The notes beneath the pieces were generated by a model that did no database searches, was not told the origin of the DNA, and saw only the letters and a program-made list of their open reading frames with translations. From positions 40,892,728 to 40,956,727 of the forward strand of contig OX031069.1 in the NCBI GenBank assembly GCA_943736015.1: a stretch of DNA of 64,000 bases, read 5' to 3'. A program made the position numbers and the translations under genes. Each line of letters begins with the position of its first letter. The stretch's first letter is position 1. Source of the DNA: Tridacna crocea. Taxonomy: Eukaryota > Mollusca > Bivalvia > Cardiida > Cardiidae. This document shows positions 9,401 to 62,900 of the stretch, piece by piece.

Positions 9401-12400
9401 ACTTAACCACAGATTTAACTCTCTACCAGTGACAAAATTGTAAAACCTGTCTATTTGAAAACCTTTAAAGATGATAAATCAATGAAAGAAATTCTTCTTT
9501 AAAGGATAGAAAACATTGTGGCAAAAGGAGAAAATGCTGTCCACCAGCATCTTCTCCTTTTTCCATAATTTTTTCAAAGGCTTTATTGATTTCTGGATTG
9601 TGAAAACAAGGCATTGATTGGTAAAGAGTTATTATTCATTTCAATATGTCATGCTAAAAGTTTGAGGAAACCACACTGCTTTTACACATTGCAGGAAATA
9701 AACCCTTAGATAACTTATGATCAAAATACATTTTGTCATTCCGAGGCAAAATAATGATACATTGTAGGGTTTTTTATATTTACAAGGTTGTCTTTGGCAC
9801 AAATTTATCAAGTTACCCTTGTTATGGCAAAAGGTGTTTTGATGTATCTAAGTGATCTATTATGTTAACTCTTAACCTCATCCTCGGATACCCCGGGATC
9901 TCCCTATTTGCTACGCTACATGGACCCCTGGGACAATTGACTAATAAAACTTTGAATCGGCCGCCGAAAATCGATACGAAACGTCATAGCGCACAGTCCA
10001 CTCGCCCATCACAAAATGATGATGGAACAAATGAAAAGCCAGCATTCAGCCAGCGGGAAAGCGAGGGAAATTCAATTAATTGTCCCAGGGGTCGATGTAG
10101 CGCAGCAAATAAGGAGACCCCGGGGTATCCGAGGATGTCTTTACCTCACAATCCCGACTTATAACGACCCTGAGAAAGAAGCCCGTAGAAAGAATTTTGG
10201 GAAAAGGAGAAAATGCTGGTAACCAGCATTTTCTCCTTTTCCCACAATGTTTTCTACCCATCACAAAACAAATTTCAAATTTTCAGTCACTTTTATTTTG
10301 TCGTCTGCAAATGCTTCCGATTTGAACAAGCCTAAAATATTGTTTGTTTGGTAATGAGTTAAATACAATATTTGTCAAACATCCAACTTAATCATGAGAC
10401 AACATCTGGCAAAATTAACCAATTGCAAAATGTTTCGACTAATGTCAGCCTGGGTGGGCTGCACAGGCTGAACTGGGTCTATACTTTTTGCAGATGCATA
10501 AAAATCCTTTTTTCATAAAGCATGTCTCAAGTAATGACAGTGAAGATTTAGAAACATACGGCATGTTCTATGTAGTTTGATCTCTAGTCTTAACTGTCCA
10601 CAAAACAAAGTTGTACTAAGTAATCTAGGGGTTAACCTCTTCCCAAACAATAAACTTTTCGACTGGACCAAATTGAAAGCATTTGCAGATGACAATGAAA
10701 CTCTTGCTGAAAAGATGATTTCTGTCTATAATAGGGTAGAAAAAATTGTTGGAAAAGGAGAAAATGCTGGTTACCAGCATTTTCTCCTTTTCCCACAATG
10801 TTTTCAAAAGGCTGCTATTCCAGACCCGTAAAAAGCAGGGATTATTTGGGAAAGGATTAAGTGGTTTTCTCCATGTTGCTTTTTGTCTGTGTTGTGAATC
10901 TTGCAGACCATGGGGTTGAAGGAAGTCGCACCTCCTGCGCCTGACACTAATGCTGTATGTCTTTCTTCTTTCCTCCTTTCACATTTTGCTCCTTTGTGAA
11001 TTGATGTTACAGATAAACAGACTCTTTGTTATGTATTATTTCTTTGTGGTAATCCTATATAAAACAGTCCACCCTTTTACCATACAATCCTCCGGTTTTT
11101 ACAACCCTGAAGGAGGATCCTTTAGGACTTTCTCCTTTGTGCACAATAATATTCTACCCAATTCAAAGACAAAATCCATCATTGGCAAAGAGGTAATCCC
11201 TTACAAAACAATCTGGAGTTTTAACTCTTTCCCAAGCAATCCCTGGTTTTTACGGGTCTGGAATAGTAGCCTTTTGAAAACATTGTGGGAAAAGGAGAAA
11301 ATGCTGGTAACCAGCATTTTCTCCTTTTACCACAATGTTTTCTAGCCCATCATAGACAGAAATAATCTTTTCAGCAAGAGTTGAATTGTCGTCTGCAAAT
11401 GCTTTCAATTTGGACTAGTCCAAAAGTTTGTCGTTTGGGAAAGGGTTAATGGCATTGATGAAGAAGGCTTTCCTACAATGTTTTCTACCTTTTCATTGAT
11501 GACTTACCATTTGATCCACATTTGATGAGTGGTTTGCAGATGCCTTCAAGATGGATGAGTCTAAAATTGTATGGTTTGGTAACTGTGTACTCCACAATAT
11601 GATATTCCAGGTTGAAAAGCATTTGCAGACAACAAAATAGATAAAAAAGATATAGTTTCTTTCTCAGGGAGGGGAAAAAGGAAGAAAACATTTTGGGAAA
11701 ATGCTTTCAAAAGGCTTCTTTCTTAAGGTTGTCTAGATTTGAGATGGTACGCTAAAGGTTTAACTCTGTACCAAACAACAAAATTTTAGACTAGTCCAAA
11801 TTGAAAGCACTTGCAGACTACAAATGAAATGTAACTAAAAAATTGAAATTTCGTACCAATAGGGTAAAGAAAATTATGGGAAAAGGAGAAAATACTGGTT
11901 ACCAGCATTTTCTCATTTTCCCACAATGTTTTCAAAAGGCTTCTATCTCAAGGTGGTTTAGATTTGATGGTATAAGTTTAACCCATTACCACTCAATCCC
12001 TACTTTTGACGCCCCTGAGAAAGAAGCCTTTTGAAAACACTGTGGGAAAAGGAGAAAATGCTGGTAACCAGCATTTTCTCCTTTTCCCACAGTGTTTTCT
12101 ACCCTTTCCAGGACAAATTTCTATTTTTCAGTCACCTTTATTTTGTCGTCTGCAAATGCTTTCAGTTTGGACCAGTCCAAAATTTTCTCGTGTGGTAAAG
12201 AGTTAACACATCTCCATAAGTAGACAAGTATTTTAGCAGCTCTTACCTCCTCTTGCAGTCTGACCTCGAATAAAAAAGATTCTTAAACATTAACTCTTTA
12301 CCACACGAGAAAATTTTAGACTGGTTCATATTGAAAGCATTTGCAGACGACAAAAGAAAGGTGACTCAAAAATAGAAATTTGTTCTGGTAAGGGTAGAAA

Positions 12401-15400
12401 ACACTGTGGGAAAAGGAGAAAATGCTGGTTACCAGCATTTTCTCCTTTTCCCACAGTGTTTTCAAAAGGCTTCTTTCTCAGGGGCGTCAAAAGTAGGGAT
12501 TGTGTGGTAATGGGTTAAGGTCTTCTCTCATGGTGGCATCTTTGCTTCCAAAGGCATAAATAGATACTGAAGTAAAACAACTGGCAGTGATCTTTGTTTA
12601 GTCTTTTTATCTGTGACATGTTCTCTAATCTTGTTTCACCTTGTTTTGTTTCTTTTTTACCAATTTGCATGCTTATTTTCTTTTCAGCTTTCTTTGTATG
12701 TTCCCAAATGATATGCCATCCATTACTAAGATAGTGTCGGGCAGATACAATGTCTACATTTTGAGATTTTAACCCTCTGCCCATCACTACTACACATAAG
12801 CATAAACTTGCGCCTTATTCCATGAATGTCCATGCTGGCCCTTAGTACACCACATAGACCTAAGTAATATTTTCAGTCTACAATATTAACTTTTAGATAT
12901 ATACGTGAAAACCGATCCACGTGATACTAGTTGCATGATACACAAGTCGTGACCCCAGCTTAATATGAGTTGACCTCATACCAATATTGATGACCCGCGA
13001 CCAATACAGAAATCCTTGAACGTGATTGGTCAAAAGTTCAGTCGCATGAGTGTCTGTGCTTACTTTCTGATCAATTACGTTCAAGGACTTCTATATTGGT
13101 TGTGGGTCGTCAATGTTGATACGGGGTCAACTGTATTGATCGGAGGTGAAGTCATATTAAGCTGGGGTCACTACCTGTGTACAATACAAAGTAACAAATG
13201 TGACTAGTAAACCCTATTTTCACTTCCCTTAAGTTGTCATATTGATTCTGGGCCAACAGTTAATTAAAGAAATGTCATTGATCAAGCAATTTCTTATTGG
13301 CCCAGTTACAGGTCAGAGGTCAGCCGTATTGGCCCGAGGCCAAAATGATCAAGTGATTTCATATTGGTCCAGTTACAGGTCCGAGGCCAGCCATATCAGC
13401 CTTCAGCCTTTGGCCAATACGGCTGACCACGGACCTGTAACTGGGCCAACATGAAATCACTTGATTAATAACATAGTAATAATAGGTGAGATCAAAGTTG
13501 CTATTGTCAGCAAAGCAGGCAAGGGTTGGACCATATGTTATGTGTAGTATGATATTGATCTACACTGACTCCAGAGGCAACTATAGTTGCCATGCTCTAC
13601 TATTGATCTACATTGACTCCAGAGGCAACTATAGTTGCCATGCTCTAGTATTGATCTACACCGACTCCAAAGGCAACTTTAGTTGCCATGCTCTGGTATT
13701 GATCTACACTGACTCCAAATGATACTATAGTTGCCGTGCTCTAGTATTTATCTACATGGACTCCAAAGGCAACTATAGTTGCCATGCTCTAGTATTGATC
13801 TACACTGACTCCAGAGGCAACTATAGTGGCCATGCTCTGGTATTGATCTACACTGACTTCAGAGGCAGCTATGGTCACCATGCTCTGGTATTGATCTACA
13901 ACGACTCAAGAGGCAACTATAGTGGCCATGCTCTGGTACTGATTTACTTTGACTCCAGAGGCAACTATAGTTGCCATGCTGTGGTATTGATCTACGCCGA
14001 CTCCAGAGACAACTATACTTGCCATGCTCTGGCCATACTCTGGCAAAAGGGGATTTAATGCATCTCCTTAATGTATGCAACTCATCGCAAAGTTCTGATC
14101 TGTGAAGTCCATTTTGTATAATAATCAAATCTTTTATTAATTAAATCTTTACCAAACGACAAAACTTTATCCTTGTCCAAATTGAAAGCATTTGCATGCA
14201 ATAAAAATAAAGGTAACTCAAAATTGAGATTTTTTTTCCAGCATGGTAGAAAACATGGTAGGAAAAGGAAAAAATGCTGGTTACCAGCATTTTCTCCTTT
14301 TCCCACAATTTTTTCAAAAGGCTCCTATCTCATGGTCGTAAAAACCAGGGATTGTTTGGTAAAGGGTTAAACTTGTCCTTTGACATGTATGAAAATTTAC
14401 CAGTAGCAAAACGGTAAGACTGGGATCAGTCTCAATGGGCTGCTCAGGCCCATCTAAATTAAGGGTTTTTTTTCCACATGATAAGACACTCTTTAAGGGG
14501 ACAATTATAGCTCATTTGAACTTTCCTTTTTTCTCACTTTGATTGCAGTATCAGCATTTTAATGATCTCTTTGTTATTTAATGTTGCTAGTATTGCCTTT
14601 TTGAAGAGTTTTTAATTAACCCATTACCACACAATCCCCTACTTCTGACGACCTTGGGAAAGAAGCCTTTAGAAAGCATTGTAGGAAAAAAAGAAAATGC
14701 TGGTAACCAATGTTTTCTACTCTTCACTAAACAAATTTCAAATTTTCAGTCACTTTTATTTTGTCATCTGCAAATGCTTTCGATTTGGACAAGCCTAAAA
14801 TGTTGTCGTTTGGTTATGGGTTAAAACACTTCATTCTTCTAAATGTTCTCTACATTTTTAACTCTTTCACGGCTGAATAAATGAATTGCATTTTCTGGCT
14901 TTGAACCCAGTTTTTCTCATTTATAATGAAGAATAAAGGAGTGGACATGTAGATGAAAGATCAGATTGCATGTTCTGTGCAGTCTGAATCCTGATCTACA
15001 TTGTCCACAAAAGCTGGTGCCTTCTAGTTTATGTAAAGAGTGAAGCATATATTACTCTAACTATTGTATTATAAGTAGAACATTACATAGTGTTTCATTA
15101 ACTCCATGAGAAATTCATAGTTTATTATATTTATTATATTTATTATATGATTATGATTTAAAAATTCATATTTTGGTGTGAATAAATTAACCCTTTCCCA
15201 AACGACAAATTTTCGACTCTTCCAAACTGAAAGAGTTGGCAAACTACAATTTTAACTTTCATAACAATGGCTGACTGAACATTATCCGAATGGGCAGAAA
15301 ACCCTGTGGGAAAAAGAGAAATTGCTCGTTACGAGCAATTTCTTCTTTTCCCACACTGTTTTCTAAAGACTTGTATTGCAGACACATAAAACAAGGGCTT

Positions 15401-18400
15401 GTTTGGGAAAGGGTTAACAGGATCGTTTTGAAAAAGCTAACAATTTTCAGTTATTTCTCAAACAGCCTGTTTAATAACGTTTTTGGTGTTGTCATATTTA
15501 ATTTCAAAGCCCTATTTCAAAGTTTTCTACCTACTTTTGCATAGTTTCCTTGCATGTCTTTTTGCATCTGTCTTGATTGTGATTTGACTATATGGTATGT
15601 GCATTCAGTTTAAAGTATGGCTATAGCTGTATGTTGATGGTTTTCTTTTTAACTCTTTACCACAATCCCAGTCTTTTTAAACATTGAAGAAAAAAGTCTG
15701 TTGAAAAGATTGTGGGAAAAGGAGAAAATCCTGTTAACCCATTACCACACAATCCCTACTTTTGATGTCCCTGGGAAAGAGGCCTTAAGAAAGCATTGTG
15801 GAAAAAGGAGAAAATGCTGGTAACCAGCATTTTCTCCTTTTCCCACAATGTTTTCTACCCTTCACAAAACAAATTTCAAATTTTCAGTTACTTTTATTTT
15901 GTTGTCTGCAAATGCTTTCAATTTGGACCTTTCTAAAATATTGTCGTTTGGTAATGGGTTAACCAGCATTTTCTTCTTTTCCTACAATGCTTTCTACTCT
16001 ATCTGATGTACTTTCCTTTTTTTTGAGCCCAAATAAGATTGATGGCTGCTTTGAACTTGGATCAGTTTTACATTTTGTCAGTTGGTAAAGAGTTAAACAA
16101 CCTTACAAATGTGATTTGTTACCACTCCCATGGAGCAAAAACTGATTTTTATCAAAAACAGACTTCAGTTCTTAAGCACTTTTTTTAGGTAACCATCTTC
16201 GCAAGCCAAGGATGACGATCCTTGATTTCGGTATTCCCCCATATGCATTTTCATTGGTTGCAGCAAGCTCTAACTGTACGAATCAAATCAATCGTAGCAT
16301 TTCATTTTTGATGAAATAAAGAACATGGTCGCTACCCTTTGGATAAAAATAGAAGGTAAACATGAATACCTGCGTGGATGTGTGCAGGATCTGTACTGGT
16401 TTATTGCTGAAAAACATAGACGAACAATGTCTACAGAAAGTTTCAGTGTGACCAATTAATTATCAGAAGTTTTAAGCTATATCCCAGCACCTGACCATGG
16501 AATGTCGAAGTATGTTTGTGGTTATTGCTTCATCTTGAATTAATGTATTTGTAAGCGGTTTGTAAACGATATTTCATTGGCTAGAAGAAATATGTAAAAG
16601 GAGATAATAAGCAGCATCTAATAGGGGGTGTTTCACGGAAATCTCAAAATCAGGCACAATCTGCCAAGGTAAGATTCACATAGTGATCGTAACCTTGGCT
16701 GGCGAAGATGTTAGGTAACTCAAGACTGTAACTACAATTTTGACAGAACTCCTTTACTGATACCGAGTATTTTGAATTTTGGCATTTGACTTATATTGTT
16801 CCTCTCCATGAATTATCCTACTTGTTCCACTTCTGTCACATCTATTTCATGAATTAAGTATTTTCCAGGGGACAAAATTTAAACTAGTCCAATTTGAAAG
16901 TATTTGTAGATGAAAGCTCTTTACCACATGAGAAAATATGAGACTAGTCCAAATTGAAAGCATTTGCAGATGACAAAATAAATGTAACTGAAAAATTAAA
17001 ACTTGATTTGGGAAGGATGGAAAACATTGTGGGAAAAGGAGGAAATGAATGTGACCAGTATTTTCTCCTTTTCCCACAATGTTTTCATAAACTTTCTTTC
17101 TCAGAGTCATCAAAAGTTGTCATTGTGTAAAGCGTTAAACAATCCTAAAGGATAAAATGGATGGTAAAATGAGCTGTCAAAGATTTTGAATATGGGAGTT
17201 TCTCCTTTTCCCCACAATGTTTTGTGTTGGTTTTTTTTTTTTCACAATTTAACTTTTAACCAAACAACAAAATTGTAGACTTGTCCAAAACAAAAGCATT
17301 TGCATAGTATTACGACAAAACAAGTATTACTCAAAAATTAAAAGTTGTTTCCAGCAGGGTAGTAAACACTGTGCGAAATGGAGAAAATGCTGGATACCAG
17401 CATTTTCTCCTTTTCCCACTATGTTTTCAAAAGGCTTTTATCTCAGGGTCGTAGAAAACAGGGATTGTTTGGTAAAGGGTTATGCCAGGTTCAGTGGAAG
17501 TACATGTAGCTAAAAAACTATTTTAACGACCCAAGGCCTGAAGAAGTATTTTGAAAACATTGCAGGAAAATGTGAAAATGCTGGCAACCAGCATTTTCTC
17601 CTTTTCCTACAGTGTTTTCTACCTAATCATAGACAAATTCCATCATTTGAGCCACATTTAACTCTTTACCATACGAAAACATTTTAGACTGGTCCCAATT
17701 CAAAGCATTTGCAGACAACAAAATAAAAGTGACTGAAAATTTGAAATTTGTTTTGGGACAGGCAGAAAATATTGCTGGAAAAAGGAGAAAAGGCTGGTTA
17801 CCAGCTTTTTCTCCTGTTTCCACAATATTTTCAAAAGGCTTCTTATTTAGAGTCATTAAAAGTTGAGATTGTGTGGTAAAGGGTTAACTCATTACCAAAC
17901 GTCAACTTTTTAGGCTTGTCCACATCAAAAGCATTTGCAGAAGACAAAATAAAAGTGACTGAAAATTTAAAATATGTTTTGCGAAGGGTAGAAAACGTTG
18001 TGGGAAGAGGAGAAAATGCTGGTTACCAGCATTTTCTCCTGTTTCCACAATATTTTCAAAAGGCGTCTTTCTCAGGGTCGTGAAAAGTTGGGATTGTGCG
18101 GTGAAGGGTTAAAGTATTATCTACAGATGCCTTTAATTTGGACAAGTCTACTTTTTTTGTGTGTGATAAGAAGTTAAAAATGTAATGAGCTTGTAACAAT
18201 TTTACAGACACTAGATGCAGATTATTCAAAGAATCAAGAAGCCCTCCTAGGAGTCCTGTGTCACATGTTGTCGGGGAAGAGTTTTGAGCTCATCCTTGCT
18301 GCTGCTGCAGCTACTGGAAAACTGCAGATATTTTGTTTTAAACTGATTAAGTAAGTAGTTCATTATGAACTCACTGAATTTTACATTTATGCATTTGTTG

Positions 18401-21400: not shown

Positions 21401-24400
21401 ATATTTGTAGACTAGTATAAAATCCATATCAAACTTTCAGCCTCAAACTGTCTTCATCTGGTTGATCCTTTAGCACATCAGGTTTTACTCTATACCCCAT
21501 TGGGCATTTCTATGGTATCTCTAATTGACCTTAAATGAGAGCAAGGATAAAGCCTTTTTTTATGTGTATAAGATACCTTCTGATAGTATAGAAAAAATTG
21601 TGGCAAAAGGTGAAATTGCTCATGACGAGCAATTTCATCTTTTGCCACAATTTTTTCCAAAGGCTCCTACAAGCAATGCGTAGAAATGAGTATCTATGGA
21701 CTTAAAAGATAACTTTTCACCCTTTACCTAACATACAATTGCGATTTTCAACAAATCTGAGAAAAAAGCCTTTTGAAAGCATTGTAGGAAAAGAAAAAAA
21801 TGCCATTAACCAGCATTTTCTCATTTTCTGAGAATCTTTTCTACCCTTCATGAAACAAATTTCAACTTCTGAGCCACATTTATTTTGTCGTCTGCAAATG
21901 ATTACAATTTTAAATAGTCTACAATTTTATCTTTTGGTAAAGAGTTAATTAAGGGGAAAATAAGATTAACTCTTTACCGCACAATCCGAAATTTTAACAA
22001 CCCTGAGAAAGAAACCTTTTGAAAACATATTTGGAAAAGGTGAAAATGCTTGTAACCAGCATTTTCTCCTTTTCCAAAAATGTTTTCTACCCTACCAAAG
22101 AGAAATTTCGATTTTTTTTATGTCACATTTATTTTGTCGTCTGCAAATGCTTTCAAATTTGGACAAGGCCAAAATTTTGTTGTCTGGTAACAAGTTAAGA
22201 AATGTTAAGAAAGAAAATGCTGATTATGTGAATATGAAAGACTTTACAAGAAGTTATTTCTAAAACATGAAATGCTGGACTTGTACAATTTGTTAGAAAA
22301 AGGTAACTAGCATTTTTTTCCTTTTCCCACAATGTTTTGTACCCTCCCCAAACCAAATTTCGGTTTTTGAGTCGCATTCATTTTGTTGTCTGCAATTGCT
22401 GTCAGTTTGTGCCAGTCTATTATTTTGTCGTTTGGTAAAGAGTTAACCCTTAGCCAGAGTCTCTTATTGACCCTAAATAAGAGCAAGGATAAAGCCAATT
22501 CTTATTTGTATATGACACCTTTTGATGGTGTAGAAAACATTGTGACAAAAGGTGAAATTGCTCGTCACGAGCAATTTCACCTTTTGCCACAATGTTTTCC
22601 AAAGGCTCCTACAAGCAATACGTAGAAATGAGTATCTATGGAGTAAAGGGTTAAACTCCCTTTTCAAAAAGTATGGCTCATATATTATAGTAGCTAGTGA
22701 AGGCTTGTCATGTTTCTGTAATTATTTTTTAACCTTCTTTTTCAGTGCCCCAAAGTGGCATGAGATTTGTGCTAATATTCCATATGCGGTGCAAGAGGTC
22801 CTCTTTGCATGGGAGCATGGTGCCCTGTCAGCAGAGAACATTAAGGTAATAGTTTCATTGTGATCAAGGAGTTCTCAATTTGGAAAACGTTTCCTTACAT
22901 CTTCAAACAAATTTTAAAGAAGAGAATTTGGAAACATTCTTGTATGATACAGAAAGTCAAAATATGGTAAATATGGAATATTATAATGTTATAAATTAAG
23001 TGATTTCGAATTGGCCCAATTACAGGTCCGAGGTCAGCCGTATTGGCCCGAGGCCAAAGCCTAATACGAAATCACTTGATTAATAACATTTTTATTAATA
23101 AACTGTTGGCACAGAATCAATATGACAACCTAAGAGAAGTGAAAATTGGGTTTACTAGTCACATTTCTTACTTCCTATAGTATAGGGGTCGTGACCTGAG
23201 CTTAATACGACTTGACCTCCGATCAATACAGTTGACGTCGTATCACTATTGATGACCCGCAATCAATACAGATATCCTTGAACCTGATTTGTCAAAAGTA
23301 AGTGTAGACGCTCATCCAACTGAACGTTTGACCAATTACGTTCGAGGATTTCTTAAGCAGTGAGAAGTAAATACATGCACAAGGAAAGCCTTTTGAAAAC
23401 ATTGAGGGAAGGGCATAAAATTCTGATAACCAGCATTTTCTCCTTTTCCAACAATGTTTTCTGTCCTTTCAGAAACAAATTGAACTATTTGAGACATGTT
23501 GAATTTTTTATCTGCAAACTCTTTGAATTTGGGCTGGTCTAAAATTTCCTTGTGTGGTAATGAGTTAACTCATTACCAAAGTTAACTGCATTTTCTCCTT
23601 TTCCCACAATGTTTTCTAAATGCTTCTTTCTCAGGGTCGTCAAAAGTAGGGATTGTATGGTAATGGGATAAAGGACTAATTACAAAGTCAAGAATAAAGC
23701 CCAAATTATGTCATATATTTACAGATAATTATGGCCTATGTGAAGAGCCGTATGCTGTGTTTACCAGTGGTTGTATCAGCATGGATGTGTAGCTACATCA
23801 ACATGCTAAGTGAGGATGCACGTGGAAAACCACTCTCTGTGTTACAACAGCTTGTTCAGCCAATAAGTTGTGATGGGACTTCACAGTACTACAATGAAAG
23901 GTATGGTAGCTGTTTCCTGGAGAAAAATTACTGTGATACATGGCAAGAATAGAATGAAAGCTGAGCATTAAAGAATCAGAAATAGTGTTAACCCACTACC
24001 ACATAATCCCAACTTTTGACGTCCCTGAAAAAGAAGCCTTTTGAAAACACTGTGGGAAAAAGATAAAATGCTTGTAACCAGCATTTTCTCCTTTTCCCCC
24101 AGTGTTTTCTACCCTTTCCAGTGTTTTCTACCCTTCCCAGAATAAATTTCAATTTTTCAGTCACCTTTATTTTTTGTCGTCTGCAAATGCTTTCAATTTG
24201 GACCACTCTAAAATTTTGTCAAGTGGTAAAGAGTTCGCTATTCAACACCAACCATACTCTGGCCATAGGGAGCTTGATGCATCTCCACTGAAGCATTCAG
24301 TGTTCGGCATTTCGGCATTGCCCTTTCACTATGAGAATGCCCCCAAAATTTAAATCTTATCTCAAATGCCCACAGGTCTCCGATTCTTTTTATCACATAA

Positions 24401-30400: not shown

Positions 30401-33400
30401 AGTCACGTGCCAGTCACTTGACATTCCCACAATGTATTTTTAGCTCACCTGGGCACAACATGCTCAAGAGAAGATTTTAGGATCACCCGGTGTCCGTCTC
30501 CGTTTTGTGTCGTGCGTCATCAACAATTCTTTAAACATCAACTCCTCCTAAACCGCTGGGCCAATTTGTACCAAACTTGGCTGAAATGTTCCTTGGGAGG
30601 TCCTCTTTAAAATTTGTTCACAGAATTTGATTCCGTCAAAAACTCTGGTTGCCATGGCAACCAAATGGAATTTTTTAGGAAATTCTTTAAAAATCTTCTT
30701 CTCTGAAACCACTGGCCAGATTTTAAAATAATTTCACACAGATGTTCCATGGGTGACCTTTTTCAAAAATTGTTCGCGAAATTTTGATCCGTCAAGAAAC
30801 ATGGCTCTGGTGAATGGGGGCTTCTTGCACTATACAGAAATGAAGAAATTCTTAAAAGTTCTTCTTCTCTGAAACTGCTGGCCAGATTTTAAAAAAAATT
30901 CACAAAGATGTTCCTTGGGTGACCCTTTTCAAAAATTGTTTGCGAAATTTTGATCCGTCTAGAAACATGGCTCAGGTGAATATGGGCTTCTTGCAAAATA
31001 CAGAAATGAAGAATTCTTAAAAATTCTTCTTCTCTGAAACCGCTGGTCAGATTTTAAAATAATTTCACAGAGATGTTCCTTGGATGACCCTTTTCAAAAA
31101 TTGATTGCGAAATTTTGATCTGTCAAGAAACATGGCTCTGGTGAATGGGGCTTTCTTGCACTATACATAAATGGAGAAATTCTTAAAAATTCTTCTTCTC
31201 AGAAACCGCTGGCCAGATTTTAAAATAATTTCACAAAGATGTTCCTTGGGTGACCCTTTTCAAAAATTGTTCGTGAAATTTTGATCCGTCAAGAAACATG
31301 GCTCTGGTGAATGGGGGCTTCTTGCACTATACAGAAATGAAGAAATTCTTAAAAATTCTTCTCTGAGATTGATGGCCAGATTTTGAAATAATTTCACAGA
31401 GATGTTCCTTGGATGACCCTTTTCAAAAATTGTTTGTGAAATTTTGATCCGTCAAGAAACATGGCTCTGGTGAATGGGGGCTTCTTGCACTATATGGAAA
31501 TGAAGAAATTCTTGAAAATTCTTCTTCTCTGAAACGGCTGGTCAGATTTGAAAATTGTTTCACATAAATATTCCTTGAATGGCCTTTTTCAAAATTTGTT
31601 CACAAAATTTTGATAGGTCAAGAAACATGGCTCTGGTGAATGGGGGCTACTTGCACTGTACTGAAATAAGAAACTCCTAAAAATTCTTTTTTGAAACTGC
31701 TGGTCAGATTTTGAAAGGACTTTTACAGGTGACCTATCAAAAATTGCTTGGCAAAATAATGATTTTGTTTCCAGTGTTTCTATACCTTCAAAAAGAAAAA
31801 AAGGCTATGGTCCTCTCAAAAATTCAGGTGAGCGATCCAGGGCCATCTTGGCCCTCTTGTTTATTTTTGGCGCAAAATCTAAAAATAGCTTAGGAGGCTA
31901 CGTAGCCTTTTAAGGGAATACCATCAAAAAAATTTTTTTTGTAATTTTATGAATCTTTATTATTGATGATTTGTATTATTTTTTCATATAAATTTCAGTG
32001 ATATGTATATTTTTTAATTTAGTGAGATGTAAAAATTCTAAATACCCACCTTTAACATCAAAGAAAGAGAAATTCAGGTACAATGTACATTTGTACAACA
32101 ATATTCAGAATTCTCTAAGCTGTAAGAATAGATCTATCATGGCAACATTGTTACAGCTTACTGCATTTTATGTTTAGGTAAAATAGGTAATTCAGAAATT
32201 ATTGTGCTTAGCCAAATAAAGTACTGTTATATTGCATGTGATGAACTACCTTTATGACCAACAATCCTAATTTGGCTCCAAAAAAGTGGTCATCTTATGT
32301 CAGAGGTTAGCCAAGCCCTGCCAGCTCAATTCCTACGGCTTAAGTATGCAGACAAACTTTTAAGACTTGCCCAAATTCAAATCTTTTGCAGATGATAGAT
32401 AGGAAATGTTGCTTCAACAATTTGAACTTTTTCAGGATGGATAGGAAATATAGTGGAAAAGAGAGGAAATGTCATTACTTGCATTTTATCCTTTTACTAC
32501 AATATTTTCAGTGGTCTTATTGCATTTCAGGACTTTTGTAAATGATTAAATTATCAAACTTTCAGATGATTTTATAAATTCCAAAGATGAGGGGGATATC
32601 ACACCTACCATTGACACAAAAGATCCATTGAACAAAGCACTGAGTAAGTATATTTCATTTCAAATTCTAGGTAGAAAACATAAGAAATGTTGATGAAAAA
32701 TATAAACAGGGAAAGAGGAAGCAGAAAGTGAATATCTAATCTGTTATTTTTAGCTCACCAGAGCAGAAAATGCTCAAGGGAAGCTTTTAGGATCATGCTG
32801 GGTCCGTCGTCCGTCATCCATTGTGCGTCAACAATTTCTTTAAACATTTTCTCCTCCTAAACCTCTGTGCCAATTTAGGCGGATTTGGACCAAACTTAAC
32901 TGAAATGTTTCTTTTGAGGTCCTCTGCAAAAACTGTTCATAAAATTTGATTCCATCAAAAACTCTGATTGCCATGGCAACCATTTGGAATTTTCATAGAA
33001 GTTTTGTAAAAATCTTCTCTGAAATCGCTGGTCAGATTTTAAAATAATGTCACAGGGTGGTTGCTTGGGTGACCCTTTTCAAAATTTGTTTGCAAAAGTT
33101 TGATTCATGGAGAAACATGGCTGTGACGAATGGGGGCTACTTGCACTATACAGATATGAAGAAATTCTTAAAAATTCTTCTTCTCTTAAACTGATGGTCA
33201 GATTGTGAAATTATTTAACAGAGATGTTCCTTGTGTGACTGTTTTCAAAAATTGTTCCATCAAGAAACGTGGCTCTGATGAATGGGGGCTACATGCACTT
33301 AATGGAAAGAAGAAATTCTTAAAGTTTATTGTATCTGAAACGGCTGTTCAGATTTTAAAATAATTTCACGTAGATGTTCTTTTGGTGACCCTTTTCAAAA

Positions 33401-36400
33401 GTTGTGTGTGGAATTTTGATCCGTCAAGAAACATGGCTCTCGTGACTAGGGGCTACTGGCACTGTGCGGCCCTGAAGAAATTCTTAAAAATTCTTCTTCT
33501 CTGAAACAGCTTGTCAGATTTTGAAATAATTATACAGAAATGTACCTTTGGTGACCCTTTTCAAAAACTGTTCACAAAATTTTAGCGAGGGTTTACTGGC
33601 ACCATACGGACATGAAGAAATTCTGAAAAATTCCTCTTCTCTAGAACAGCTGGTCGAATTTTGAAATAATTTCACAGAAATGTTCTTTGGGTGACCCTTT
33701 TAGCAAAGTGTTCAAGAAATTTTGATCCATCAAGAAACATGGCTCTGATGGCTGTGGGCTATTTACACTATATGGAAATGAAGAAATTCTAAAAAAAAAC
33801 TTCTTCTCTGAAACCTGAAATAATTTTACGGAAATGTTCCTTGGGTGACTCTTTTCAAAAAGTATCGACAAAATTGTGATCTGTCAAGAAACATGGCTCT
33901 GGTAATGGTTGAAAAAGGGGAAATGATAAAAATCGTATGAACAGACCTAAGAATTGCATTATGAATTAGCCACCCATCCAAGCAGTAACCTTTGTGCTTG
34001 TTGCTGAACTCCATTGGAGACCGGCACTGTGTCACCTACTTGAACATGTAATATGCTGTATGTGTATTTATAGATTAGCCCTCTCCATGATGCATGCATG
34101 CATTTAGCCAATCTAAAATATTACAAGGTTGGAAATAACCCTCATGTAAACATAACGTATTGGGTTGTTGGGTAACACCTTGAAAAAATATTAAGTTTCC
34201 CAATAGTTCAAGGAATGGGTCATACCATGTGGCATGCATTAAATGGGACATTCTGATATTTGTGTAAAGTGTCGTCTCAAATCATCCTGTGGGGACTGCG
34301 CAGGCTAAGCTGAAACAACACTTTATGTTTTTATTAATTTTCTGTTTTGGGCAAATGTACCATAGCACAAAATCTTGTGTGGTAATGAGTCAACATTTTT
34401 ACCAAGAGATGAAATTTTAGACTTGACAGGATGAAAGCATTTGCAGATGACAAATGTAGTTCATATAATGACTTAGGTCTAATGACTTGGATAGTGTGAA
34501 AAAATTTGCAGAAAAGGAGAAAATGTTATATCGAGCATTTCCTCCTATTCCCATCATTTTTAGCTCTACTGGCTTTCAACCAGCAGAGCTTATGTCATGG
34601 CGTGGTTTCCTCTGTCCGTCCGTCTGTCCGTCTGTCCGTCCGTCCGTCCGTCCGTCTGTCCGTTAGTCTTTTTCTTGTTTACGCGATAAAGTCTTCATTT
34701 CTGTTCAGATTTTTGTGAAACTTACTCATTTTTTTTATTTCATTGATAGCTTTAACCCTATTGATTTTGAAAAAAATCTGACAAACAGTATGGGAAAAGT
34801 AGCCATTTCAAGTTTAAAATTTCCATTTCTTGTTTACGCGATTAAGTCTGTATTTTTGGTCAGATTTCCATGAAACTTGCAGAGTTTGTTTATCTTATCA
34901 ATAGCTTCAACCCTATTGAAGCTTCAACCCTATTACCCTATGGGAAAAGTAGCCATTTCAAGTTGAAAACTTTCATTTCTTGTTTACGCGATAAAGTCTT
35001 CATTTTTGGTCAGATTTCTGTGAAACTTACACAGTTTGTTTATCTCATCAATAGCTTTAAGCCTATCAATTTTGAAAAAAATCCGACAAACAGTATGGGA
35101 AAAGTAGCCATTTCAAATTGAACAATTTCATTGCCTGTTTGCATGATAAAGTATTTATTTGTGATCAGATTTTCATGAATTTTTTAGCTTGTTTGTACCG
35201 TCAATAGCTTTTTAACCCTTTTGAGTTTGAAAAAATTCAACAAACAGTAATGGAAAAGTAGCCATTTTGAGTTGAAAATGTCAACTTTTTTGTCTTTTTG
35301 CGTAATGAATTCCTATGTATGCTTATTTAAAAGCAAACTCTCTGCCAGTAGAGCATATTCAGGCCCTTCAGGGCCTTCTAGTTTAACTCTTTACCACACA
35401 ATCCCGACTTTAAACGACCCTGAGGTAGAAGCCTATGGAAAAGGTTGTGGGAAAAGGACAAAATGCTGGTAACCAGCATTTTGTCCTTTTCCCAAAATAT
35501 ATTCTACCCCATCAAAGAATAAAACCATTATGTAAACAAGATTTAATTTACTGTATGCAGATGATTGAATAAGACTAGTCCAAAAAATTGTAGTTTTGTA
35601 AAGAGTTAACTAGCCTTCTTCTTCAAGGTCGTTAAGACACAAGATTGTGTGGTAAAGGGTTAAACACTGAACAAAAGTATAGATCAGTATTAGAGAGGCC
35701 TTAAGCTGTTTTATTATATACCTAGCAGTTAAATCCTGGAATTTCGCAGTGTAATAAATAGAGGATATTTGTTTTTATCGGTGAAAGATCGAAATTTATT
35801 TCATCGAGTGGACACCATCGGTAATATTTTCACAAGTGGCTGCGCCACTCGTGAAAATATTACCGATGGTGTTCACGAGATGAAAAAAGTTTCGATCTTT
35901 CACCGAAAAAAACAAATATTCTATTTATTTCATATTTTTAACCCTTTCTGGGAGGAGCTTTATCAAAATTTAGTACAGTTATTTTCCCTTATTCCCTGTG
36001 GCGTACCCCTCCCGCATAGCAATGTTACGTCAAGCGCGAGAAATGTAAGGTATATGACGTCATATTTCCCATCTGGTTGTCAGGCACGCGCAATTAACCT
36101 AGGCAACAAGAACGTGAAAATCGGTATTTTCACTGGTTGAACCAGTGTAAGATCGAAAAATATTTTCACTGCTATTTCTCGATATCCTACCGGAAAGCAT
36201 GAAATAAATCTTGATATCATCACTAGTGACGATATCAACTTTCACTTTCACTTCCTGCCGTAATTTAGGAACTACTTCTCTTTTTCATTAAGCACATATA
36301 GATAGTGTTAATTAAAAATAATTATGTTAATAAGGTATATAATAAATAGAATAATCAACTGGTTATTCTTTATATGAAAAATATCTCACTCGGATGCGTC

Positions 36401-43939: not shown

Positions 43940-45352
43940 ACAGAGTTTTATTGACATATTCTTGTGACAAACCATAAGGCCGAGAGCATTCATATTTTGT
44001 TTGATGCATCATTGGGTGACCTCTTGCCAAAATTGTTAAAATTATTCCACTGGGGTCATATTTGGGCTTTGTTTTACATAGAAACAAAAAAGTAAATCTT
44101 GTAAAATCTTCTTGTGATAAACCATAAGAGCAAGAGCATTCATATTTTGCATGTAGCATTATCTAGTGACCCTTTATAAAAATTGTTAAAATGATCCCCT
44201 TGGGGTCATATTTGGGTTCTGCACGGGCGCACACTATTTTACATAGAATCATAGAAGGAAATCTTTTAAAATCTTCTTGTGACAAACCATAAGGGAAAGA
44301 GTATTCATATTTTGCATGTATCGTCATCTGGTGACCCTATATAAAACCTTCGTGGGGTCATATTTGGGCTCTGCTCGGATGCACTCAATTTCACAAAACA
44401 AAGAAGGAAATCTTTTAAAACTCTCGTTCTGACAAATCATAAGGGCTAGAGCATTCTTAATTTGTATGTAACATCATCTTGAGACCCTCTACCAAAACTT
44501 TAAAATTGACCCCTTGGGTGGTGTTTGGGCTCTGCCCAGGCTCACCCTATTTAACATTGAAAAGGAAGAAAATTACATGTCTCAAGTGAGAGACTAAAAC
44601 TTTCATGTTTTGTTTGTAGCAGAGTTGTGGTGACCCTCTGCCAAAAGTTGTTAGAGTAATTCTTATTGTGGTCACATTATGGCTTTCCTCCCCTCCCCCC
44701 CTCCCCACCCCTCCCCTCCCCTCCCCCGGGTATGCCTTATCATAAAAAGAATGGCTTCTGGCTTTGATATACTATTATTTGTATGTGGAATATAGCGCCA
44801 TTGTCTTGAGCCTATACTAAAGCTGTCTATTCACAAAAAATCTCTCGTCATAAATCATAAGTCAAACAAGGTAAAACCATTTTACAAAAAGGGGGGGGGG
44901 AGAAAGAGAGAACAGTAAACAAATAAACAGGGAAATATGTGAAGTTCTTGTTGTGACAAACCATGGGACCTAAAGATTTATCATTTGCAATGTAGCATTA
45001 ACCCTTTACTCCATAGATACTCATTTCTACGCAGTGCTTGTAGGAGCCTTTGGAAAACATTGTGGCAGAAGGTGAAATTGCTCGTGACGAGCATTTTCAC
45101 CTTTTGTCACAATATTTTCTATGCTATCAAAAGGTGTTATATACACATAAGAAACGGTTTCATCCTTGCTGTTAGTGAGGGTCAATTTGAAATACCTTAG
45201 AAATGCCTTATGGGGTAAAGGGTTAAAGGTAGTCTTCCGCAGATTTTGTAAAAAAGTTTTTCTCTTCAATTCACAGCCTGCCTTGATAAACCATATGAGT
45301 TATAAATATACTCAGGTGAGCGATATAGGACCATCATGGTCCTCTTGTCTTT
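43940..45352 (+). repeat. Tandem-array element with family B insertion
   Basis: Units of about 150-165 bp each starting near CTTGTGACAAACCATAAG, then a C-rich run (44689-44726). Closes CAGGTGAGCGATATAGGACC...CTCTTGTCT. Confidence 0.68.
44998..45226 (+). mobile_element. TTAA element, family B, intact
   Basis: 229 bp; centre at 45086, 88 bp from the left end, the same geometry as family A. Confidence 0.9.
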
Positions 45353-45776: not shown

Positions 45777-48700
45777 CTGCAAGAGAAAGCATTGACTTTT
45801 CTGTAAACGCGAGTTTGGTACGCCCTCCCTTAGTAACGCGCTTTATTGGTTGTCAAGCCTGACATGCTAACCAGAAATTGTGTCGGACTTTTTTGTTTAT
45901 ATGACACCCTATGCTGTGTTTTCATTGGTCGATATGACGTTGGTAGACCTGTCAATCAAAATCGGCAGAAAGGTCAATTGAGCCGTGCTCAAAAGGAATG
46001 GTAAAAGAGAGAGGAAAAAGAAAGAAAAGGTATATATAGGTCCAGGTCGACCAAAGCAGTCTGTGACTGCTGATCTGTGTTTACACAACTTTACACTATT
46101 GGTGAATTTTCTGCATGTGCATTCTACCTCAGGATTAACCCTTTCCAAAACGGCAAACTTTTGGACTAGACCAAATTGAAAGCATTTGCAGACGACAATG
46201 CAACTCTTGCTGAAAAGATGATTTCTGTCTATAATAGGATACAAAACATCGTGGGAAAAGGAGAAAATGCTGGTTACCAGCATTTTCTCCTTTTCCCACA
46301 ATGGTTTCAAAAGGCTACGATTCCAGACCCGTAAAAACCAGTGATTGTTTAGGAAAGGGTTAAGCAGTTTGTTGAAAAAATAAAGAATTTTATGTATCCA
46401 TAATCACACGATAACTTTCTCGATAAAATGTACCAAGAAGAGACACTAAACCCCCTTCTGCCAGAGCATGGTTCGACTTCTTGGTGATGGTCTCTTTTAC
46501 AGTAGACCTTCTATTTATATTCACTGCCACAGGTCTTTAATTTCTGTATTTCACAAATTCTCCGTTAAAACTCTGTGATGTCTTCCCAAAGAAGCTTTTC
46601 ACATTTACCTCTATTCGTATTTAACAACCATTCTTAAGAATATTGTCTTATTCTTCAAGATTTTATGATTTTGAAAGTAACACAACTCCAGATTGGCTAA
46701 AGCAAATGGTTTAGCCAACCAGGCGTTGTGTTACTTTCAAAGTTTGAACGTTCTGGAGGATTTGTGTTTGAAACGGAAGGTCACATTGTGTGATAAGGAG
46801 AATTGCTGACTGCCAGTACATGACTTTTTCTCCTTTTTCCCGCGTGGTTTTCGAAAGCCTCTTTCCTCCAGGTCTACGAAGCACAGGATTGTGTGGTTTT
46901 AGAAGTTTAATGGTTGAGAAGAGTCTTTAGGATGTATATGACAATTTCTTGTAGCGGACAGATTTTTTTAAAAACTTTGCACATACAAAGTTCATCATGT
47001 CTGTGGGAGACTATCGTAAAAAAGGATGTAGGTACCTGTGCTCTTTTCTGAGAAATTTGCCTTCGAAATGGCTATGTACAGTGCCAAAATTCAACTTGTA
47101 CTTGATATAAAGCGTTTTTCCTTAACAGTCAGTTAAGCAGGAAAAATGTACAAACATACATGATTTTAATGAAAACTCATATATATATATTTGCACAAAA
47201 ACTATATGAAAGCCTGGATTTGAGCACAATAAATGTACAACTGTGCATATTACAGAAGGACCATTCAGTTAAAAAGGGAGATAATTGGATCGAATCAAGG
47301 GTTAATCTTAAAATATACATCTTTTCTAATGGACGGATTTAAAAAAAACAATCAACACTTATAGAGTTTATAATTCTAAACAATAAGAAAAAATAAAAAT
47401 GGTACCTATCCGTGCTTATTTTGTCAGAAAACAGGGTTGAAGTTTTTTTTTTTTTTTCAGGGACAAAATAGGATAAAAGCTCAGTAGACATGATGAGAAA
47501 GGAAGAAACTGCTCAATAAGAGTTATTTCTCCTTTTCTAACGATCGCTTTCAAAGTGGAAACAGGTATACTTCCACAGATTAAGAGTCCTGCCTTTGTTA
47601 CCTACATGTAGTTAGATGTGTAACGCCGTGTCAGCAGCATTTTAATCATTTCTCGGTGACAGTTCTTCACAAATACTACTTGAAGAAGTGCTACTTGTTT
47701 CAGTGCACTAAAGTATTATCATTATGTGCAAAAATGCATATGTCACTTTTGGTCCAATATCTCAATATTAACGACAAAATACATGTGCAGTAGGATGCGC
47801 GCCAACATTTGTCATTCGTATACGTCGTTAAACAAATGATATACTAGTATATAGTAACTTAATTGTCAACTTCAATAATGAGGACCATACTTCAGTTATT
47901 TACCTTGATGTTTTCTCCAGTACTACATTGGTCCTGAGTAGGGAATTACGTAGATTTTGTCCTTGATTTTCTTACACTGAACAGCTTTTTACCCGAGACA
48001 GTATTTCAAGAAAATCTAGTTAGACTGCTTTACAAATCGATATATACGGAGTTCCTCGTGATTAAGAACAGAATTTGAGATGAATTAAAGACATCACAAA
48101 TCATTGCTATAATTATCACAACATCCCCGAGGGAACCAAGGATGAAACCAAAGGAATACAGGTGAGAGGACGACTATGTTATTTGGTTTCCTTCAGTCTT
48201 TATCTGCCAATGGAGATAATTTAATTGAAAGGATTGGTCCCTATTGGCTTGCAACATGCGACAAGGGGCGTTCGAACATGTCGCCCCGAGCCGAAGGCGA
48301 GGTGGCGACATGATTCACCACAGCTGTGAACAAGTTTCCAAGTCCCCTGCCATCTGACCGTACAACGAATTTATTATACTGCAAACTTTTACCCTTTCAA
48401 AGAGCGTGAAGCAAATTTTTCGTGTTTTATAATTTCACGAATCGAGTATGTTGACGAAATAGAAATTCCCTTCTGACTGCCCAAATGAAAACTGACGTCA
48501 CTGAAAACTAACGTCACTAAAACGTGCAGTTTAGTACATAAATGTGCACATTCGGAACACCTCGGTCAATTCTACGAATCAAGCCTCGGATGTATGCCGA
48601 CAGACTACTTCCGGAAGGAACAACAACACCCACCATAACAAGAAATACAATGACGTCATTATCGCGCAAACATTAGGCCAATCTTTCAATCCAGCCAATT

Positions 48701-53200: not shown

Positions 53201-56200
53201 TCCAGGGATCCATTGCTCTCTCAATCCGGATCAGCGAGTAGGGAGGAACATTATTAGTTGTACGGTCAGGTGGCAGGGGACTTGTTCACGGCTGTGGTTA
53301 ATCATGTTGCCCCGAGCCGAAGGCGACATGATTCACCACAGCCGTGAACAAGTTTCCAAGTCCCCTACCACCTGACCGTACAACGAATTTATTATACTGC
53401 AAAGTTATACCCTTTCAAAGCGTATTAAGAAGAATATTCCTGTTTTATACGGGCGAAAGACCGCGCCTAAGGCGCGGTCTGAAGACCGCCTATAGGTTAC
53501 ACGTACGAATAAAACTTAAAATCATCAAATTTCATAATTCAAATTACAAACCCCATAAGACTTTTTTCGGCCCTTTTGAATTTTTGTTGATTTTTCGTCC
53601 ACTGGTGGTGAGCTTCCGGTCACCAGACTGGACCGTATCAGAATTTCTTTACAGGAGCAAAGAACATTCATTTACTGACAAATTTCGAGAACTCAGTCAG
53701 CATATGTTATGAATTTTTCTAATAACAATATTAAACATAAATCACACACATTTTGGGAAATACTTCAACAAACGCGTCTTTGGAGTATATTTCTTTTTTA
53801 AGAAAAAAAAGGGGGAGGAAATATGACGTGTTCTATGTCACACGCACTGAGTTTGTAACCATACCGATCGACTGTATCTGTACTTCAACTTCCTTGACAA
53901 CCAGAAGGTTGGTTTATTACAAGATGAATTCCACACAGTCAGACAAAATCCATAAGAATAAATTTAATTATTTTGTTGATAAAATTTCTTTAAAAGTTAT
54001 CTATCTACAAGATTTCCCTTTCGTTCGTATATCATTACAAAAATTCTGGGAAAAGAATATCAATAGTTTCAATGACGTATGAACTACGCAGCGCTTAAAA
54101 TGACGTCATCTTCTGATGTCGGCCTTGATCCTTTTCGTCCTCTCAGTCTTTGTCCTACTTTTCTATCCAATCAGAACGCTCATAGCTCCATGGATAAATG
54201 ATCTGGTGATCGATCGACGCCGCCATTTTGGATGTTATGTTGCACGTGTAGTGATGTTTACGGGGCACTCAAAAGGGAAACTGGTTTTACGTGGTTTTTA
54301 CCAGGGAACATGATATATGTTCCCGGCGTGTTAACCAATCAAATCACAAGAAATTTCTTTGCAGTATAACAACAAGCGAAGTACTGGAAAAGAAACTTCG
54401 GGTAAGTATGGATACATGAAGCGATATATAGAGAATAATCAGCTGGTTATTTTTGATATGAAAAATATCCCACGAGGATGCGTTGTTAGGCGTTGAAAAA
54501 ACGAGTGCGCAGCACGAGTTTTTTTTTAACGCCTTACGACGCATCCGAGTGAGATATTTTTCATATCAAAAATATCAGTTGATTATTCTATTTATTATAT
54601 ACCTTATTAACATCATTATTTGTAATTTTGCATTTGGAAGTCGAAAAAAATGTAGCCGAAAAAAAAGGAGTTCCCAAATTACGTCAGGAAGTGAAAGTGA
54701 AAGTTGATAACGTCACTAGTGATGATATCAAAATTTATTACACTGGGAAATTCCAGGATTTCACTGCTAGGTAGATCTATATAATAAAAATGAAATGACG
54801 AAAACGATTTTGAACATCGTTTAGGTAGAGCTCTTTCCAGGGATTCATTCCTCACTCAATGCTGACCATTGTTTTGACGATGGATATTTCAGAAAAGCAG
54901 CCGGTAGCTGGAGGGAATATCAAACGAAGCACTGGAAAAGACACCTCGGTGAAATATTGATAGATGCAAAGGCAACCGCGATATAACTGAAATAAAGTTG
55001 AAATCGATTATAAAAACCATTCAAACCAATTTATATGGTGATAATTTGAGTGTTTCCAAAAACTAATTGAACTCGGACGATGCCAAGCTATGGTCTAGCT
55101 ATCATTGGCCATTATCTCATTGTGGTTATAGTTTCGACTGTTGTAGATATTATAAACATTATTGGCATCGTTGTAATTACTTGTACTTCAGTTTCTGTGA
55201 TTATCTGCTATCTTAAATTCTAATCCAGATCAGAATGCACTTGATCTATACATCATTTTTTTTGTTATTTATCTTTAAAAAAAAAATATGTGTCCTTTGT
55301 CAACTTTTAACATGGCATCCACGGCAAACAGCTGACCTGTGCAGTAGGTGTTGGGTCGGTTAACCCTTTACTCCATAGATACTCATTTTGACGTATCAAC
55401 AACAGAAAGCTTTTGAAAACATTGTGGGAAAAGAAGAAATTGCTCGTAACGAGCAATTTCTCCTTTTTCAACAATGTTTTTCACTCAATCAGAAATTTGT
55501 ATCCTCATTTGTCCATATTCTTGACATCATATCTTTATTTGCTGCTGAAATGGAAGAGACTCAAATTTCATATCAGGTAAAGGGTTAACGCATTTGCGTT
55601 GCCAAAGCTTACTGATTTTCTCGTTTTTTGACAAATGTTACCCCTTCCCTTTCATTACCTCTCCTCTAAACTTTCGATCCTTTCTCGTCTTATACTTTCA
55701 AGGTTCAATTACATTATCTCTACGGCATTTATTTTCTTTTTAAATTACAATACTGTATGTTGTACATGTATACGTGGACGAAATAAAGTTTATTGAATTG
55801 AATTGAACTGGCATGTAGTTTGACCGGAAACAGAATTTATTAACAGACACGAAGGTGGTGTTGACTAGGATCACACTGCACGTATGAGATGGTCTTGATC
55901 ATTGCTAACTAGAAAATACAAGCGTGGTGGCTAACTAGGGAATAAATGATTTATTGACGACAAAATAAATTAGCCTGCAACACGCGAAAAGGGGCATTCG
56001 GACATTTGCGTACAGTGTCGTCTCGGATCAGCCTGCGCAATCCGACCAGACTAATCCGAAACGACACTTTCTGTCTGTATGTTATTTTCCGTTTTGTACC
56101 AGTCCACTGTAGCACAAAATCTAATGTAGCCGTAAAGAGCCGTCTCGGTTTAGCTTGCACAAGCTGATCCGAGACGAAAGTCTACCCAAATGTCCGAATA

Positions 56201-62692: not shown

Positions 62693-62900
62693 AAACCTAT
62701 TACCACAAAATACCTACTTTTGACGCCCCTGAGAAAGAAGCCGTTAGAAAACATTGTGGGAAAAGGAGAAAATGCTGGTAACCAGCATTTTCTCCTTTTC
62801 CCACAATGTTTTCTACTCTTCACAAAACAAATTTCAAATTTCCAGTCACTTTAATTTTGTCGTCTGCAAATGCTTTCAATTTAGACCAGTCTAAAATATT
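62693..62900 (+). mobile_element. TTAA element, family A, right end lost
   Basis: Perfect arms; the right end is replaced after GTCTAAAATATT. Confidence 0.8.

Follow-up and report, generated by a model that had tools for sequence, protein, structure and literature searches.

Paired changes between families in the central palindrome of a TTAA-specific MITE

MITEs are usually thought to need little beyond their ends. The Angel elements of zebrafish are palindromic MITEs that have kept their inverted-repeat structure despite divergence, and a hairpin model has been put forward for their amplification; Angel elements are palindromic as a whole. The CMITEs, piggyBac-type MITEs of corals (Wang et al. 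2010, PMC2872659), resemble the family described here in several ways. As portions of that paper describe them, they are small and non-coding, have a TTAA target, occur in tandem and insert into one another at TTAA, and their internal region is more conserved between families than are their terminal repeats, all as here; their termini are of CC type, a motif that the termini here match in part, and they are about 100 bp long, compared with about 230 bp here. The authors suggest a possible role in transposition for the conserved internal region. The CMITE paper does not use the word palindrome, and we found no paired-change analysis in the portions of it that we consulted. We do not place our family among the CMITEs by core sequence, the best match of the 60-bp CMITE core consensus to our sequence (blastn-short) being 12 of 12 bases, with an E of 0.15.

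Other systems share single features with this family. The piggyBac and piggyBat elements, in excerpts of PMC7351741 and PMC11707139, also have palindromic sequence inside a TTAA-specific element, in the form of dimer-bound repeats of about 14-19 bp near the ends, whereas here there is one central palindrome of 67 bp. Kolobok and T2-MITE elements have a TTAA target site as well (PMC9587614, PMC6004289, both in part), and Kolobok termini are given in the first of these as 5'-RR. Lastly, stem maintenance by template switching, as set out in sections of PMC8794818 and PMC8604942, likewise produces two-sided substitutions that keep a stem, including types that bypass G-U. Those cases are RNA genes and yeast coding sequences, whereas ours is a transposon core, and here pairing is kept between families and not within single copies. 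Among the papers listed in the literature searches, no title or abstract opening mentions two-sided changes in a MITE's internal palindrome. The contrast between families and single copies makes it testable whether a central palindrome aids the movement or multiplication of an element, a matter that bears on why some MITEs reach very high copy number. Because stranded copies provide a nearly neutral control, this setting can separate selection for pairing from template-switch copying.

The repeat family in the window

All copies that we analysed come from one window, the whole 64-kb stretch of DNA under study. An iterated profile search (overlaps removed, matches accepted with at least 60 flank columns) identified 87 copies or fragments of one TTAA-ended repeat family of about 230 bp, which cover 27% of the window. 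The element starts with TTAA and a short terminal inverted repeat; next come some 40 bp of left flank and the 67-bp palindrome, in which two 33-bp arms enclose a single centre base, and then some 95 bp of right flank, the second terminal repeat and TTAA. The palindrome is present in 64 of the 87, counting those that have letters on both sides at no fewer than 28 palindrome pairs. Both ends are spanned by 48 copies, 204-250 bp long, and 35 of these have an exact TTAA on both sides. Short, non-coding, ending in inverted repeats and present in many copies, the element is a TTAA-specific MITE. No transposase was found among the 20 open reading frames of the window that were scanned, and two frames that overlap copies (45909-46403 and 10920-11345) had no Pfam match.

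The termini were compared with CC[C/T]T in 47 of the 48 end-to-end copies, and read CCCT in 18, CCTT in 1, CCCA in 15, CTCT in 8 and other motifs in 5. One piggyBac relative from A. millepora also starts with CCCATT (Table 2 of PMC2872659). All 47 termini listed begin with two pyrimidines and not with 5'-RR, so membership in Kolobok or T2-MITE was rejected; the pyrimidine termini point to a non-autonomous element of piggyBac type.

The search profile contains the palindrome and thus favours families that have kept it. A search by ends alone returned 43 pairs, 38 of them in the family and 5 outside (2 of these 5 span family copies). Matches to the arms at 23 or more of 33 positions were present in 33 of the 38 family members, and 10 of 200 random stretches outside copies reached 23. 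Three core patterns had no matches in viral contigs, and one of the three had none in a set of genome contigs from which the records of the window's own genome may be absent.

Several copies have inserted into or beside one another. The nested copy in Table 1 sits within an older one (15648-16100), at a TTAA in the middle of the older palindrome, and the older copy continues on both sides; when its two parts are joined, its palindrome has 28 of 33 pairs. Centre variants with GTTAAC create a target site within the palindrome. Abutting pairs of copies (17653-18113, 27758-28217, 25628-26075 and 58303-58740) stand in direct or inverted order, with the intervening TTAA common or nearly common, as if insertion occurs at each other's ends. 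Some one-arm copies are broken at or next to the palindrome centre (29059-29262, 23581-23672 and 1965-2065). The centre is not taken to be a breakage hotspot, since only 2 of 40 internal copy ends fall within 5 columns of it. In a degraded copy at 28208-28399, the palindrome appears by eye to be extended by about 13 bp per side at its centre.

Mirrored changes in the arms

An earlier note on this DNA reported that the arms of two families, A and B, differ at four positions on the left and at exactly the four partner positions on the right. The consensus sequences bear this out, at positions 14, 21, 26 and 31 and their partners. The two consensus palindromes are otherwise identical except at the centre base, which changes from A to G, a difference absent from the note (58 of 67 positions shared), and only 36 of 93 right-flank positions are common to A and B. 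All four pairs are flips (G-C to C-G, A-T to T-A); flips were dropped as a general rule, other reconstructed mirrored events not being of this kind.

The same note described copies with two of the four pairs as stepwise intermediates. Pairs 26 and 31 are indeed present in the copy that it named, here 15184-15418, and likewise in 55358-55593. The J-type copies that it counted as intermediates could not be matched to any group; the J group defined here (copies starting at 11220, 41132, 38881, 46129 and 10627) has none of the four pairs, and its consensus agrees with that of A at 67 of 67 palindrome, 30 of 40 left-flank and 70 of 93 right-flank positions. Pairs proposed as private to single copies were recovered in two cases, C/C at position 22 in 35381-35613 and A/A at position 32 in 58517-58740. 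The third, at position 8 in 11978-12206, is not private: it is also two-sided in the copies starting at 12287, 23986, 1730 and 3071.

We aligned 50 of 69 palindromes; the others were 13 different sequences, set aside by eye, and 6 members with indels or a shifted centre. Changes on both sides of a pair occur in 43 cells, compared with 10.5 +- 2.9 in shuffles (none of 500 reached 43) and 10-17 when partners were slid against each other, and 13 of the 33 pairs have such changes. We conclude that the mirrored changes between families in the palindrome arms are real. At pair 12 a mirrored change was reconstructed four times, three times from G-C to T-A and once to A-T.

The B-family copy at 44998-45226 is decayed, with 29 of 33 palindrome pairs. 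Three of its four B-type pairs are two-sided; position 26 is unpaired because the right arm has the A-type base at 45094, and one-sided changes are present at 6, 13 and 16. As single-stranded DNA, its palindrome folds at -23.9 kcal/mol, compared with -37.2 for the fully paired palindrome at 62747-62813.

Table 1. Features of the copy at 44998-45226 and of the other copies referred to, in window coordinates
Feature	Coordinates	Strand	Details
B-family copy of the earlier note	44998..45226	+	alignment envelope 44997-45230
Left terminal inverted repeat TTAACCCTTTACTCC, TTAA first	44998..45012	+	
Right terminal inverted repeat GGGGTAAAGGGTTAA, TTAA last	45212..45226	+	
Left palindrome arm	45053..45085	+	B-type bases: 14 (45066), 21 (45073), 26 (45078), 31 (45083)
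Palindrome centre base	45086..45086	+	G in B, A in A
Right palindrome arm	45087..45119	+	partners: 31 (45089), 26 (45094), 21 (45099), 14 (45106)
A-family copy	62693..62900	+	palindrome 62747-62813, 33/33 paired
A-family copy	11976..12210	+	33/33 palindrome; mirrored pair at position 8, also in 12287-12519 and others
B-family copy	22438..22656	-	mirrored pairs 14, 21, 26 and 31 all present; 32/33 paired
Copy bearing pairs 26 and 31 of the four	15184..15418	-	
Copy bearing pairs 26 and 31 of the four	55358..55593	+	B side of the midpoint-rooted flank tree
J-group copy	11220..11451	+	
Copy with partly mirrored left-arm changes	17653..17888	-	left-arm derived bases 6, 14, 17 common with 17883-18113; right arm mirrors 6, 14
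Neighbour of the 17653 copy	17883..18113	-	identical three left-arm changes, 0 mirrored
Nested copy, at a TTAA in the middle of an older palindrome	15733..15963	+	

Placement of the changes and rates of the arms

We placed the changes on a tree built from flanks only, using 56 of the 64 palindrome-bearing copies (those with at least 120 flank columns) and taking the tree without regard to support values; arm states were reconstructed with a simple substitution model. Internal branches carry 8 double changes that preserve pairing, 4 one-sided changes and 1 double change that breaks pairing. Terminal branches carry 15 mirrored changes, 197 one-sided changes, 9 pairing-breaking doubles, 3 repairs and 1 other change. 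The averages over 100 simulations with independent sites and the observed column rates and totals were, for internal branches, 0.08 mirrored (maximum 2) and 19.6 one-sided changes and, for terminal branches, 3.95 mirrored changes (maximum 10) with 177 one-sided ones. The two ratios, 8:4 and 15:197, differ with a Fisher p of 1.4e-6, the events being not fully independent. Across 60 of 1000 bootstrap trees, internal branches had 6-9 mirrored and 2-5 one-sided changes, compared with 0.4 coincident changes at non-partner positions. The earlier note would have counted uncompensated differences as frequent as compensated ones against its reading. Over the whole tree the uncompensated are far more frequent (201 one-sided, 23 mirrored), apparently because stranded copies decay, and by the letter of the note this would refute it; on internal branches they are the fewer.

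Of the 8 internal mirrored events, 6 are the ones that divide a small number of families, and the count includes pairs 26 and 31 twice each. If the B family and the copies at 55358, 15184 and 3071 are left out, 48 copies remain (those of the A and J clade), with 2 mirrored and 4 one-sided changes on internal branches, and 13 and 174 on terminal branches. The internal signal therefore rests on few events. When the terminal repeats were treated as a second pair of mirrored arms, 2 internal and 2 terminal mirrored changes were found, with 12 and 88 one-sided changes; this signal is weaker than that in the palindrome, and the idea was set aside.

A comparison of copies in pairs, which uses no tree, gives a similar picture. 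One-sided differences amount to 0.11-0.22 per pair cell at any flank divergence, and mirrored differences rise from 0.007 to 0.10. The mirrored share of differences goes from 0.06 at less than 10% flank divergence to 0.39 at 50-60%, although not monotonically (the bins between have 0.14, 0.09, 0.10 and 0.17). In our reading, the one-sided differences record how each copy decayed on its own, and the mirrored ones record family history.

The arms also change slowly on internal branches, at 0.19 of the flank rate; for terminal branches the ratio is 0.60. Counted per site, internal changes number 0.36 and 0.30 for the two arms, 0.92 and 0.50 for the terminal repeats and 1.65 and 1.81 for the flanks. 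Blocks of columns that cover the palindrome have 0.25-0.58 internal changes per site, those just outside it 1.67 and 1.42, and the shift in rate coincides with both palindrome ends. In close copies, decay inside and outside the palindrome is nearly equal: the arm-to-flank ratio is 0.80 among the 15 closest pairs (14 copies) and 0.78 and 0.66 at wider cuts, and 18 pairs compared with flank columns that include the inner ends have 0.074 in the arms and 0.080 in the flanks. Regression of arm on flank divergence gives a slope of 0.28 (0.23-0.34) and an intercept of 0.054 (0.027-0.079; bootstrap over copies). The lineage that founded the families, by contrast, kept the palindrome.

Explanations for the paired arms

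Mirrored changes are in excess and concentrate on internal branches, where the arm rate is low, and close copies decay nearly as fast in the arms as in the flanks. This suggests a role for the core during the mobile phase of the element. For the source lineage we favour either selection that acts on the core or a conversion process tied to mobilisation. Our leading explanation, to which we give about half of our confidence, is that purifying selection in the mobile lineage maintains the palindrome as a cis-acting part, preserving its sequence and also the pairing of its arms, and that the palindrome decays after insertion. In the mobile lineage it would be constrained at least as strongly as the terminal repeats, and the changes that survive there would be mostly two-sided because sequence and complementarity are kept together. 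Once a copy is inserted, selection would end and the arms would decay one side at a time. Selection for mobility would presumably cause the constraint, and the palindrome may act in transposition or repair as a hairpin or cruciform of DNA, or else as a symmetric protein site. The paired mutations could plausibly come from template switching between arms. Selection on the core that acts at the DNA level with strict pairing is the best supported form. A bolder version, possible in our view but doubtful, is that the element needs a long hairpin or cruciform at its centre in order to move. Such a DNA structure, conserved above the terminal repeats and under strict Watson-Crick selection, would be a structural cis-signal of a eukaryotic cut-and-paste element and would perhaps be renewed by arm-to-arm copying in each round of mobilisation.

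The earlier note left a choice between a selected hairpin and arms homogenised by gene conversion. The data favour selection, or conversion tied to mobilisation, and argue against routine correction of resident copies, given the arm-to-flank ratio of 0.80 in the closest pairs and the scarcity of mirrored changes in recent insertions. The 25 terminal branches shorter than 0.10 have 2 mirrored and 58 one-sided changes. Simulated short branches have a mean of 0.27 mirrored (2 were reached in 4 of 100) and 38.4 one-sided changes; the simulation is an imperfect null, as it falls short of the 58 observed, and the 2 mirrored changes make rare correction possible.

A purely mutational explanation would have one arm copied onto the other, mainly during replication or mobilisation, in a palindrome without function. 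Template switching can make and repair stems (PMC8794818) and homogenise the arms of inverted repeats (PMC8604942), according to portions of these papers. The 15 mirrored changes on terminal branches exceed the simulated number, and the share of transitions among mirrored changes (0.44, with 0.49 on terminal and 0.42 on internal branches in the flanks) is as expected from copying. The neighbouring copies at 17653 and 17883 have three left-arm changes in common, two of which, eight bases apart, are mirrored in the first copy, a pattern that looks like arm-to-arm copying. By their flanks these two are not closest relatives, and a simple chimera seems less likely as the origin of the 17883 copy, because its two flanks are about equally similar to those of 17653 (identity 0.80 on the left, 0.82 on the right). 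However, copying alone keeps the substitution rate and would not lower it, yet the internal arm rate is 0.19 of that in the flanks, which argues against conversion by itself, as do the few mirrored changes on short terminal branches. Inversion of the centre, which one kind of switch would leave behind, is not overrepresented either, complement flips making up 4 of the 8 changes at the centre base (0.30 expected, p 0.20), and the clustering of mirrored events on branches is not significant (12 of 23 on branches with two or more, 7.8 simulated, p 0.096). We consider a wholly mutational origin unlikely.

The palindrome might instead be a symmetric site for a dimeric protein, such as the cysteine-rich domains of a piggyBac-type transposase, with symmetry that comes from the dimer and not from folding. 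In piggyBac and piggyBat, a dimer of such transposase domains binds the palindromic internal repeats (PMC7351741, PMC11707139, both in part), and here conservation of the arms extends to their sequence and not just to their pairing. The published sites are short, at about 14-19 bp, for a palindrome of 67 bp, and mirrored changes at 13 of 33 pairs suggest that what is maintained there is pairing and not a fixed half-site. The likeness of the arms to the terminal repeats is unconvincing (best p 0.02 in 14 comparisons), and we did not adopt the terminal repeats as the source of the arms. A protein site of this kind is quite unlikely.

We think it very unlikely that ectopic recombination swapped the palindrome as a block between families, so that its conservation and the simultaneity of its changes are only apparent. 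Copies are dense in the window, and pairs 26 and 31 change together at two places in the flank tree, as such exchange might produce. However, conservation drops at both palindrome ends, limits that exchange tracts need not respect, and block exchange accounts neither for the first origin of the mirrored variants nor for the mirrored pairs of single copies.

Selection on a transcribed RNA stem, possibly a small-RNA precursor, is highly improbable: the core does fold as a full stem (-37.2 kcal/mol, with DNA parameters) and MITE-derived hairpins can become microRNA genes, as with Made1 and mir-548 (PMC1784062, in part), but no strand shows a preference for G-U (51 terminal one-sided changes give a wobble in plus-strand RNA, 45 in minus-strand RNA), so that compensatory changes are not joined by the one-strand G-U preference of a functional RNA hairpin, mirrored changes are not enriched in transitions (0.44 vs 0.49), no single G-U intermediate links the four A/B flips, and no Rfam family reaches its gathering score within the window.

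The window has other features. Mediator subunit 24 is found in animals. Two open reading frames (25235-25546 and 27161-27487) match consecutive parts of it (profile positions 675-759 and 759-837, E 7.8e-16 and 1.6e-12), so part of the MITE cluster is in or near MED24 introns, and the DNA is probably from an animal. A tandem array of 48-bp units lies at 13457-14126, and another repeat cluster, with spacing often near 166 bp, at 30584-33918. A second palindromic repeat (TAATATTTTCAC..GTGAAAATATTA) occurs in at least two copies, centred at 8954 and 35842.
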